Both the position numbers and the translations under genes were made by a program. Shown piece after piece: positions 23,942 through 50,285 of a stretch of 50,334 nucleotides of DNA. The first letter of the stretch is position 1; every line of letters begins with the position of its first letter. The notes under the pieces are model-generated. The model was not told the DNA's origin and searched no databases. It was given only the letters and a program-made list of their open reading frames with translations. The stretch spans positions 125,899-176,232 of the forward strand of contig PCYA01000009.1 of assembly GCA_002762795.1 (NCBI GenBank), in the 5' to 3' direction. The stretch comes from Candidatus Woesearchaeota archaeon CG10_big_fil_rev_8_21_14_0_10_37_12. Its GTDB lineage: Archaea > Nanobdellota > Nanobdellia > Woesearchaeales > ARS49.

Positions 23942-24286
23942 TCAAACAAAACCAACGAAACCCATTAATTCATCAGCAGTATATTGGTTGAGATAGAGAT
24001 CATATATTTCTTTTGCAATACGTACTGAATTGCTGTTTTTTGTTTCTTCTGTAATGATAATTATGCCAAAATGATTTTTCTTTTTGGATTTAGAATCTTT
24101 TAGAAAAGTACTTTTATCCCTGGTAATTAATACGCTTTCTAAACTCATAGCAACAATTAATTGGTCTTCATCGTTTAGCTCGCGATTATTCAATTCAACA
24201 GCAGTTTTTACCTTAAATCCTAATGAACTTAACATTTGTCCAACAAGAGGATTTACATCTGCATCAAGATAACATTTAGCAAACAT
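23942..24286 (-). CDS. DUF5615 PIN-like toxin
   Basis: This 114-aa PIN-like ribonuclease candidate has CYLDADVNPLVGQMLSSLGF, whose aspartates match the N-terminal metal-binding acid of DUF5615. ELNDEDQLIVAMSLESVLITRDKSTF then supplies the central acid and TxD/TRD-type signature. These proteins are the toxin half of VapBC-like modules that cut RNA. The antitoxin-type DUF433 gene lies 7 nt upstream on the same strand, the usual antitoxin-first order. Transcription is presumably autoregulated by the pair. Confidence 0.8.
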   Translation of the reverse strand: MFAKCYLDADVNPLVGQMLSSLGFKVKTAVELNNRELNDEDQLIVAMSLESVLITRDKSTFLKDSKSKKKNHFGIIIITEETKNSNSVRIAKEIYDLYLNQYTADELMGFVGFV

Positions 24287-24293
24287 TTAATCT

Positions 24294-24578
24294 TCACTCT
24301 TTTTTAATATTACCTCTACACAAAATAGTCCCTGGCTTATTTCTAGCTGCAATGTACCCTTCAATTTCAGCAATATTTGTAGTGTAGTACTTGATTGCTT
24401 CATGAGCAGCATCCATCGTGAATCTATCATGGTGTGTCTTAATAAGATATTCAATTCCAGTCATATCTCTTCCACGGTCAGTATCAAGAACAATGTTTGT
24501 TACAGTAATACGTGTATGCACTATTCTTGGTTCATGTTCTGGTGACTCACGCACAATATAATTATAACCTGGAATCAT
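24294..24578 (-). CDS. DUF433 antitoxin
   Basis: EPRIVHTRITVTNIVLD followed by RGRDMTGIEYLIKTHHDRFTMDAAHEAIKYYTTNIAEIEGYI is the DUF433 pattern: a winged-helix DNA-binding protein acting as antitoxin to PIN-like DUF5615 toxins. The chosen ATG (24578, MIPGYNYIV, 94 aa) has a GAGGAGA ribosome site 5-6 nt upstream; an earlier start would place coding sequence over that site. It is the first gene of the two-gene toxin-antitoxin operon. The C-terminal basic tail probably contacts the toxin. Confidence 0.82.
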   Translation of the reverse strand: MIPGYNYIVRESPEHEPRIVHTRITVTNIVLDTDRGRDMTGIEYLIKTHHDRFTMDAAHEAIKYYTTNIAEIEGYIAARNKPGTILCRGNIKKE

Positions 24579-24645
24579 TTTCTTTCTCCTCATCAACTTT
24601 TGAACTATTTTTATCTTCTACACCTCTCAATAATCCATTTCTTAC

Positions 24646-26112
24646 TCAATATAAGTTACTTTCCTTTCCAAGCTGCTTCATAATAGAAAGCGCAACACTT
24701 TTGCCAACAATACGAGCAAGTGAATCAACAGGAACTTTTCTTAACGCGCCGAGGTCTTTCAAACCAGCATTGAATAGCTTTCTTGCACGAACTCTACCAA
24801 CTTGTTCCAAACGAATCAATGAGAGTAGTTCTTCTCTTATACCATATTTCAAACGCAAACGAGCCTTTGTAATTTCTTTTAACAGCGGCTGATAATTCTG
24901 CAATCTTGCAAGCTCATGACACGCATACAACAACCAATCAGCACGATCAATCTTGGACTTTGTTTCACCAGGACGACTATCATACGATTCAAGAATCCAC
25001 TCTTCATCCTTTTCATCAACCCAATCAAGCAACATCAACGCAGTCTTGAAACTCTTCAACCAATCGTCATATTCTGGCTCAAACATGCTCGGCTCTTTCT
25101 GCAACAAATAAGATTCAGCTTCAATATACTTTTCCTGAACATCCTCATATTCTTTCTGCTTAACAGTAAGCAATGGTCGCATTTCAAGCGTGTTGCAAAC
25201 CAAATGAAAGAAAGAAATTGTTTTTACTGTAGTGCTTTTTGCACGCTCTAAGCCAATCAGCAAATGATGCGCAGTTAAAGGGTCAACATACAATTCAGCA
25301 ACACGCTTGCCAAGATTTGTTGCACGAAAACCTTCCTGCACTTTCTGAATAAAATTCCAATCAATAAGCAAATCAAGAACGCGCTCAATGATTTGTTCCA
25401 TTTTATCCAAGTCTTTGTATTGATGCGCCCAAAACGTTTGCTCAAAAAACTCAATAATGGATTCATTGGAATGAACAATACGCGAATTAATCAACGAAAG
25501 AACATAAACACGAAGCACAGGTTCAACAGCAAGCTTACTGTAAATATCTTCTGGAACACCGTTAATGTATTTCTCAATCACAGAATCTCGCTCGTATTCT
25601 GAACTTGTTATTATGATTGCCTCACCAACACTATCAAACTTCGGACGGCCAGCACGACCAGCCATCTGCAAATATTCAAGCACAGGAATGGGCATCATAC
25701 CATGATGACCAAACCTCTTTACGTCGCGAATAATTGCGCGAAAAGCAGGAAGATCTAAACCTGCAGCAAGCGTAGGAGTGCACGCAATAATTTTCACTGC
25801 TCCATCTCTAAAACCATTCTCCACCAATTCTTTTTGCTTCGGAGCAAGCCCTGCATGATGAAACGCAACACCGGTTTTTGTACAAAATGCTAACCGATCA
25901 CATTGCTTCGTTGGTTTAGAAAGTGCAGCAAGTATTTTTTGACTTAACTCCTCTGTTACAGCGTTTGACTGCTTTACTTTTTTAGCAACATCCTCAGCCA
26001 CTTTTTCAGCACTTCTTTTTGCATTCACAAAAATTAATGCCTGTTTGTTCTTTTCCAAAGTATCAAAAACAAGATTAATCAAAGGATCACGAGTTTTTTC
26101 AGAGATAATCAT
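24646..26112 (-). CDS. Hel308-like helicase lacking the first RecA domain
   Basis: The protein (488 aa) begins at the linker before RecA domain 2 (KTRDPLINLVFDTLEKNKQALIFVNAKRSAEKVAED). It contains motif V (CTPTLAAGLDLP), motif VI (QMAGRAGRP), the winged helix, the ratchet domain (ADWLLYACHELARL) and the C-terminal helix-hairpin-helix (LEQVGRVRARKLFNAGLKDL). Motifs Q, I, Ia, II (DExH) and III of an intact Hel308 are absent, so it cannot hydrolyse ATP alone. The missing half is not upstream: a tRNA-Ile gene starts 24 nt before the start codon. Either the helicase is encoded as two halves elsewhere in the genome, or this is a truncated remnant. The remaining frame is intact, which favours function. 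Confidence 0.82.
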   Translation of the reverse strand: MIISEKTRDPLINLVFDTLEKNKQALIFVNAKRSAEKVAEDVAKKVKQSNAVTEELSQKILAALSKPTKQCDRLAFCTKTGVAFHHAGLAPKQKELVENGFRDGAVKIIACTPTLAAGLDLPAFRAIIRDVKRFGHHGMMPIPVLEYLQMAGRAGRPKFDSVGEAIIITSSEYERDSVIEKYINGVPEDIYSKLAVEPVLRVYVLSLINSRIVHSNESIIEFFEQTFWAHQYKDLDKMEQIIERVLDLLIDWNFIQKVQEGFRATNLGKRVAELYVDPLTAHHLLIGLERAKSTTVKTISFFHLVCNTLEMRPLLTVKQKEYEDVQEKYIEAESYLLQKEPSMFEPEYDDWLKSFKTALMLLDWVDEKDEEWILESYDSRPGETKSKIDRADWLLYACHELARLQNYQPLLKEITKARLRLKYGIREELLSLIRLEQVGRVRARKLFNAGLKDLGALRKVPVDSLARIVGKSVALSIMKQLGKESNLY

Positions 26113-26135
26113 ACTGGCTTTTGTTTAGCGAAAAA

Positions 26136-26255
26136 TGACCCCGCTGAGATTTGAACTCAGGACCTCTCGATATCTATAAAAGCTTCGCTTTTCTACTGAG
26201 TTAAGCGAAACTTAACATATCAGTCGAGTGCTCTACCAGGCTAAGCCACGGGGTC
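26136..26255 (-). tRNA. tRNA-Ile(GAU) with a 46-nt intron at 37/38
   Basis: On the minus strand the exons are 26255-26218 and 26171-26136. Acceptor GACCCCG pairs with CGGGGTC, discriminator A. The anticodon arm is CTCGA-CTGATAA-TCGAG after splicing, anticodon GAT. The D-arm is GCTTAGCCTGGTAGAGC and the T-arm CTGAG-TTCAAAT-CTCAG. The intron (26172-26217) contains two 6-bp hairpins, GTTAAG/CTTAAC and AAAAGC/GCTTTT. The central helix of the bulge-helix-bulge pairs three of four bases (CTG with TAG). Confidence 0.9.
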
Positions 26256-26318
26256 TATAAAGAAGCAAGCCTACTGCTGATTTTTAAAGGTATCGCTAGC
26301 ACTCTTTTTTCAGAACTA

Positions 26319-50141: not shown

Positions 50142-50181
50142 GTTTTATAAATAAAAGTAAAACTTTCTCATGTATTAAATT

Positions 50182-50279
50182 GGCACGGTAGCAAAGTCTG
50201 GTCAAATGCGCTGGACTTAAGAAGCATTAAGCTATCCAGTCTCTTAGTGGGTTCGCAGGTTCAAATCCTGCCCGTGCCA
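50182..50279 (+). tRNA. tRNA-Leu(UAA) with a 12-nt intron at 37/38
   Basis: Acceptor GGCACGG pairs with CCGTGCC and the discriminator is A. Anticodon stem CTGGA/TCCAG and loop CTTAAG-A give anticodon TAA. The long variable arm (about 15 nt) and T-arm GCAGG-TTCAAAT-CCTGC fit a class II leucine tRNA. The intron AAGCATTAAGCT (50222-50233) forms a canonical bulge-helix-bulge: exon CTTA pairs perfectly with intron TAAG, and each bulge has 3 nt. The loop is only 6 nt. Confidence 0.92.
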
Positions 50280-50285
50280 TTAATT

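Follow-up and report, generated by a model that had tools for sequence, protein, structure and literature searches.

The window, by which we mean the whole 50,334-nt stretch of the genome of Candidatus Woesearchaeota archaeon CG10_big_fil_rev_8_21_14_0_10_37_12 analyzed here, carries on its reverse strand an open reading frame of 488 aa (24646..26112), which profile searches, Pfam, PDB comparisons and AlphaFold modelling identify as the C-terminal half of the helicase Hel308, from RecA2 to the HLH domain (hereafter, C-half). The RecA2 domain occupies residues 1-162 (25627..26112; the limits are approximate and come from a Helicase_C match at residues 70-157 and the alignment with PDB 2zj2). 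It contains the sequence TPTLAAG (residues 112-118, 25759..25779), which we take to be motif V and which is the site of intein insertion in several relatives, and motif VI, QMAGRAGRP (residues 149-157, 25642..25668), whose conserved R153 and R156 presumably serve as arginine fingers. Motif IVa, FHHAGL (residues 84-89, 25846..25863), was located by its definition in PMC10484726, the accessible part of which reports that this motif in RecA2 modulates both unwinding and annealing. RecA2 is followed, in the order kept by Hel308, by the winged helix (HTH_61, residues 163-256, 25345..25626), the ratchet domain (Helicase_dom4_arc, residues 300-424, 24841..25215) and the helix-hairpin-helix (HHH_5, residues 431-482, 24667..24822), all on the reverse strand and assigned by Pfam, the last with a score of 20.8 bits that is below the cut-off of 27 bits. 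No DEAD domain was found in the 488-aa protein by the Pfam scan.

The C-half covers positions 224-707 of 739 of the NCBIfam profile PRK02362 and positions 231-698 of 704 of NF040935 (Hel308; 308.3 bits), and it aligns with positions 228-702 of 720 of Pyrococcus Hjm (2zj2). The earlier note, made from the window sequence, had placed the start of the protein at the boundary of RecA1 and RecA2, and both PRK02362 and 2zj2 bear this out. Its statement that all downstream domains are intact holds for RecA2, the winged helix, the ratchet domain and the HLH; what is missing is a C-terminal PIP-like motif. The accessible part of PMC2636818 describes a PIP box at the C-terminus of PfuHjm, and a PIP-like tail (KRKGQxSLxxF/Y/W, a loose pattern) closes 63 of 78 C-halves at loci from named genomes; the same loose pattern is absent from the window's protein. 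The best PDB fold matches of the C-half alone are all Hel308/Hjm, the archaeal structures being 32-38% identical over its length. The AlphaFold model of the isolated C-half (mean pLDDT 87.2, pTM 0.59) is confident within domains and not between them, and differs from intact Hel308 by an rmsd of about 12.

Directly upstream of the C-half, on the same strand, lies an intron-containing tRNA-Ile(GAT) gene (complement 26136-26255), which the default tRNA scan missed and which ARAGORN reported once introns were allowed; it scores 56.9 bits against the Rfam tRNA model, whose gathering score is 29. The end of the tRNA is 24 nt from the start of the C-half, the distance given in the earlier note, which leaves a spacer of 23 nt. 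There is no TATA-like box in this spacer. The nearest ones are TTTATA (26175-26180, reverse strand), which is located within the 46-nt tRNA intron (26172..26217) and stands 68 nt ahead of the C-half ATG, and the box-A-like TTTAAA upstream of the tRNA (26283..26288, reverse strand), 176 nt before the ATG. The latter is likely the promoter of the tRNA-Ile gene and perhaps of the C-half too. In the source genome, the C-half would be transcribed either from the tRNA-Ile promoter or from the TATA-like site inside the tRNA gene.

The N-terminal half and the position of the break

The source genome (1.35 Mb in 19 contigs, 99.1% complete) contains 11 DEAD matches, one of which is located in a 220-aa frame on a contig other than that of the window. 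This frame holds a 217-aa gene (G000:C4:70182-70832) whose product begins with MNINLPESAL, ends with LIFEN and carries Walker A (TPTASGKT), DEIH and SAT motifs. It matches positions 5-218 of PRK02362 and positions 8-212 of 704 of NF040935 (227.2 bits), and its best PDB matches are Hel308/Hjm. This is the separate DEAD-box half that the earlier note had proposed to look for (hereafter, N-half). Together, the two proteins span the Hel308 profile with about 5 positions of PRK02362 between them, and neither reaches alone the NF040935 cut-off of 1200 bits. Thus, RecA1 with Walker A and DExH is encoded by a gene apart from that for RecA2 with motifs IVa (F/YHHAGL), V and VI, and no single polypeptide of the source genome combines them: a full-length Hel308 was not found, and the C-half query otherwise matched two weak paralogues only.

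Where the break falls can be seen from comparison with intact genes. The N and C matches are consecutive in 20 intact genes of other orders in the class and are separated by about 5 to 20 residues, and the N-halves terminate 0-12 residues past the profile match in all 48 cases. The break therefore falls in the RecA1-RecA2 linker, and nothing conserved has been lost. Tails that short leave no room for an intein half at the break, and none of the 48 N-halves carries an added interaction domain that could explain how the halves hold together. No intein domain was found by Pfam in either half of the source genome, and no N- and C-terminal intein parts flank the junction.

Inteins are found inside the C-half of several relatives. 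In seven Woesearchaeales loci (L235, L236, L237, L239, L240, L242 and L243) an intein is inserted at motif V (TPTL^C ... HN^S), with Pfam confirming Intein_splicing and LAGLIDADG_3 in L235 and L240, and in L241 an intein is inserted at motif VI (QMAGR^C ... HN^S). Another C-half, L238 (G305:C56), is extended at its C-terminus by a fused Methyltransf_30 (MnmC-like) domain, and a Methyltransf_30-like gene is also present downstream of the C-half at some other loci. The long C frame of L232 is due to a 5' frame extension. We had considered the long C-half frames of the order as candidate full-length genes and rejected this, since the loci examined hold inteins, a fusion or a frame extension.

Hel308 is split throughout the Woesearchaeales

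Among 57 genomes (the source genome, 25 of its family and the rest from the same order), a C-half match was obtained in 54 and an N-half match in 54, some of them paralogues only. Each half was then used to search 367 genomes drawn from across the class. For the 151 of these that belong to the Woesearchaeales, an N-half was found in 142, a C-half in 139, both in 131 and neither in one (G113). The N match is lacking in 9 genomes and the C match in 12, the case with neither half included, and these are nearly always different genomes; genome incompleteness is the likely reason. Among the matches listed for the order, each of the 132 N frames measures 212-299 aa; of the 120 C frames, 112 measure 332-598 aa, the 8 longer ones being accounted for by inteins (G284, G369, G198, G250, G220 and G051), a fusion (G305) and a 5' frame extension (G231). 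In other orders of the class, 15 of 18 N matches and 26 of 30 C matches among those listed fall in frames 687 aa or longer. Of the short frames in other orders, that of G093 (L231) holds the N part and the start of the C part within one frame, and in G092 and G099 the C match starts at base 1 of another contig. The full-length proteins from other orders (L191-L210) are homologous over their whole length and are encoded by one open frame of 687-755 aa, apart from L210 (648 aa), which is clipped by a contig edge. In a phylum-wide draw of 279 genomes, none of the matches listed fell outside the class.

An alignment scan of named genomes with the C-half gave a consistent picture: the best 80 loci, which are the top hits and not a random sample, are mostly titled Candidatus Woesearchaeota, the remaining titles including some Nanoarchaeota, Nanoarchaeia, DPANN, Euryarchaeota or uncultured archaeon. 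One assembly (isolate NC_groundwater_437) has two C-half loci on different contigs (L184 and L186), which is either a second copy or a mixed bin. In nine picked genomes with both halves on one contig the gap between them ranges from 3.3 kb to 421 kb, with all strand combinations; two of the nine are single-contig genomes, with the halves 37 kb and 142 kb apart. An assembly or frameshift artefact is rejected on these grounds: the halves are far apart even in single-contig genomes, and the position of the break does not differ within the order. What is observed is what a naturally split gene should present, i.e., two unlinked complementary genes, intact orthologues in outgroups and one common breakpoint.

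Both halves are conserved. All 48 N-halves share the Walker A motif, the SAT motif and, within DEIH, the D, E and H without exception, and their WRP residues vary little or not at all. Among C-halves, R153 and R156 of motif VI are invariant in 18 of 18 and in 33 of 33, and across the 33 the residues of motifs IVa, V and VI are fully or almost fully conserved. dN is 0.07-0.28 and dS is 1.1-2.8, the latter given only where it was computable and being near saturation. In a quick phylogeny of 48 N-halves together with the RecA1 domains of 20 intact genes, the free topology required two changes between the split and the intact state rather than one. Constraining the split sequences to one clade was not rejected (p-AU 0.77) and gave a better likelihood than the free tree. 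A single origin of the split is thus allowed by these sequences, not proved.

The tRNA next to the window's C-half is not an isolated case. An upstream flank of at least 5 kb was available for 45 of the 80 named C-half loci, and 33 of these 45 have a tRNA within it, with tRNA-Ile(GAT) or tRNA-Asn(GTT) present within 5 kb upstream in 27 of 45. Within 500 nt upstream, any tRNA is found at 16 of 71 named loci and tRNA-Ile(GAT) or tRNA-Asn(GTT) at 12 of 71; downstream, tRNA-Arg(GCG) is found within 5 kb at 14 of 46. The rough random expectation for an Ile or Asn tRNA near the C-half is less than 1% of loci, relatedness being ignored. ARAGORN mislabels some intron-bearing tRNA genes (its Ser(AGA) calls at L171 and L173 resemble Ile and Asn), and the Ile/Asn counts are thus probably lower bounds. 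Not every C-half has an adjoining tRNA and the tRNA orientation varies: where the upstream tRNA is no more than 400 nt away, it is on the opposite strand at 5 of 15 loci. Neither tRNA-Ile(GAT) nor tRNA-Asn(GTT) was found in the available flank of any of 20 N-half loci or any of 20 full-length loci, a few of these flanks being short.

In 20 genomes of other orders, a tRNA-Asn probe matched in 13, tRNA-Asn was confirmed in 11, and tRNA-Ile(GAT) was beside it in none of the flanks of about 1.5 kb. At one of these loci (L246) tRNA-Asn is followed by a gene called Ile(TAT), which could reflect an older Asn-Ile-like pair; in L252, whose family is the same, that place is taken by a gene called Ser(TGA). 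The link of the C-half to tRNA-Asn and tRNA-Ile looks like a trait of the order that probably dates from near the split. The gene neighbors (FtsY-like genes beside 10 of 20 N-halves; genes we presume from sequence to be SecF/SecD-like beside 11 of 20 full-length genes) gave no sign of which half kept the ancestral place.

Proposed origin and working of the two-gene helicase

At each step of the motor, RecA1 and RecA2 close on ATP and open again, and the linker between them would therefore be expected to matter. The explanation we favor, to which we assign a probability of roughly 0.87, is that Hel308 underwent one ancient fission that has been kept since the two proteins assemble into a working Hel308 with the ATP site completed in trans. 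Hel308 would have been broken a single time, no later than the common ancestor of the Woesearchaeales, in the RecA1-RecA2 linker, and the two pieces would have reached unlinked loci, where each is now an ordinary gene. Most likely, the halves join non-covalently into one motor. According to the accessible part of PMC2636818, domain 1 of the Hjm structures bears Walker A and B, and domains 1, 3 and 4 form a DNA tunnel. In the split enzyme, ATP bound to RecA1 of the N-half would face the motif VI arginine fingers of the other polypeptide, and DNA would pass through a tunnel walled by both halves, with one wall and half of the ATP site contributed by the second protein. The paired halves are predicted to have the helicase activity of a Hel308, ATP-driven 3'-5' unwinding of forked DNA, and to act in fork and recombination repair, as do other Hel308s.

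The fission may have involved a rearrangement at a tRNA locus. Only the C-half is tRNA-linked, unlike the N-half or the intact genes, which makes such a rearrangement a plausible cause of the split. The earlier suggestion of recombination at the tRNA thus survives as a possible cause of the fission, and fails as an account of a damaged gene. A more elaborate version, which we regard as doubtful, is that an SF2 helicase has been turned into a two-subunit motor, in which the C-half, in most lineages held at PCNA through its tail, would be an ATP-free binding or annealing module on DNA and RecA1 a separate on-switch, the activity being set by the supply of the small ATPase subunit. In this version the break came from a rearrangement of the tRNA-Asn/tRNA-Ile locus, and tRNA promoters would still drive the C-half in some lineages.

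It is unlikely that the two halves are uncoupled, with the C-half being an ATP-independent DNA-binding or annealing factor and RecA1 a separate nucleotide-binding regulator or belonging to another partner. The physical link between the halves is only predicted, one half is present without the other in 19 of 151 genomes of the order, and C-halves with the PIP-like tail could act at PCNA alone. However, motif V and VI residues, expected to read the ATP bound to RecA1, have stayed invariant or nearly so, and the halves co-occur in 131 of the 151 genomes. The uncertain domain placement in the model of the isolated C-half also hints at coupling, as it would be expected if RecA1 were needed to order the C-half.

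Restoration of the full-length protein by trans-splicing, either through a split intein or through joining of mRNAs by the tRNA-splicing endonuclease, is very improbable. The inteins within the C-half of relatives and the intron of the neighboring tRNA-Ile might suggest it, but the N-half tails leave no space for half an intein, both genes have start and stop codons of their own, a TTTAAA precedes the N-half ATG by 30 nt, and the tRNA often does not adjoin the C-half or is on the other strand. The idea that the window holds a decaying truncated gene, made by recombination at the tRNA-Ile that ends 24 nt upstream and already devoid of the PIP-like motif, can be dismissed: C-half frames are open and conserved across the order, the N-half is present elsewhere in a genome in which no full-length Hel308 was found, and dN is far below dS. 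The other reading in the earlier note, a split helicase with the N-half encoded elsewhere, is the one supported, and the same split is common to the order.

Compared with the structurally characterized archaeal Hel308/Hjm proteins (PDB 2P6R, 2ZJ2/2ZJ8 and 2VA8) and human HELQ, which is related to Hel308 (PMC10484726, accessible part), the Woesearchaeales version is alike in its five-domain order and motifs and differs in being made from two unlinked genes, without the covalent link between RecA1 and RecA2. Split genes as such are known in DPANN. The accessible part of PMC3655853 lists ten for N. equitans and eight for Nst1, including those for reverse gyrase and a large helicase-related protein and not including Hel308, and proposes intrachromosomal recombination as the cause. 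The likeness is that a DPANN gene exists in two pieces whose products are expected to assemble post-translationally; those splits, however, concern two genomes and some differ between them, whereas that of Hel308 is order-wide. Dph1/2 is split in some Woesearchaeota (PMC6349945, accessible part), and no helicase is mentioned in the accessible main text of an archaeal fusion and fission screen (PMC11237513). The literature searched, which covered few subscription papers, yielded no report of Hel308 being split in these archaea.

In N. equitans, C/D box sRNA genes are located beside split genes and were offered as a cause of splitting, and a dicistronic tRNA precursor is cut by RNase Z (PMC3491384, accessible part). 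The small-RNA neighbors of Hel308 are instead tRNA genes linked to the C-half only; after N. equitans, this would be the second case in which split genes are connected with small-RNA loci, here over a whole order. A natural order-wide split of the linker allows a direct test of the extent to which the covalent link is necessary, and the split Hel308 can serve as a simple molecular marker for the Woesearchaeales. Annotation pipelines may label each half as partial, both being far under the NCBIfam Hel308 cut-off.

Elsewhere in the window, a tRNA-Leu(TAA) gene with a 12-nt intron (50181-50280) is visible only when introns are allowed. A DUF5615 protein gene (114 aa) and, just upstream on the same strand, a gene for a 100-aa protein occupy positions 23942-24596; the two resemble a toxin-antitoxin pair, with no antitoxin family matched.
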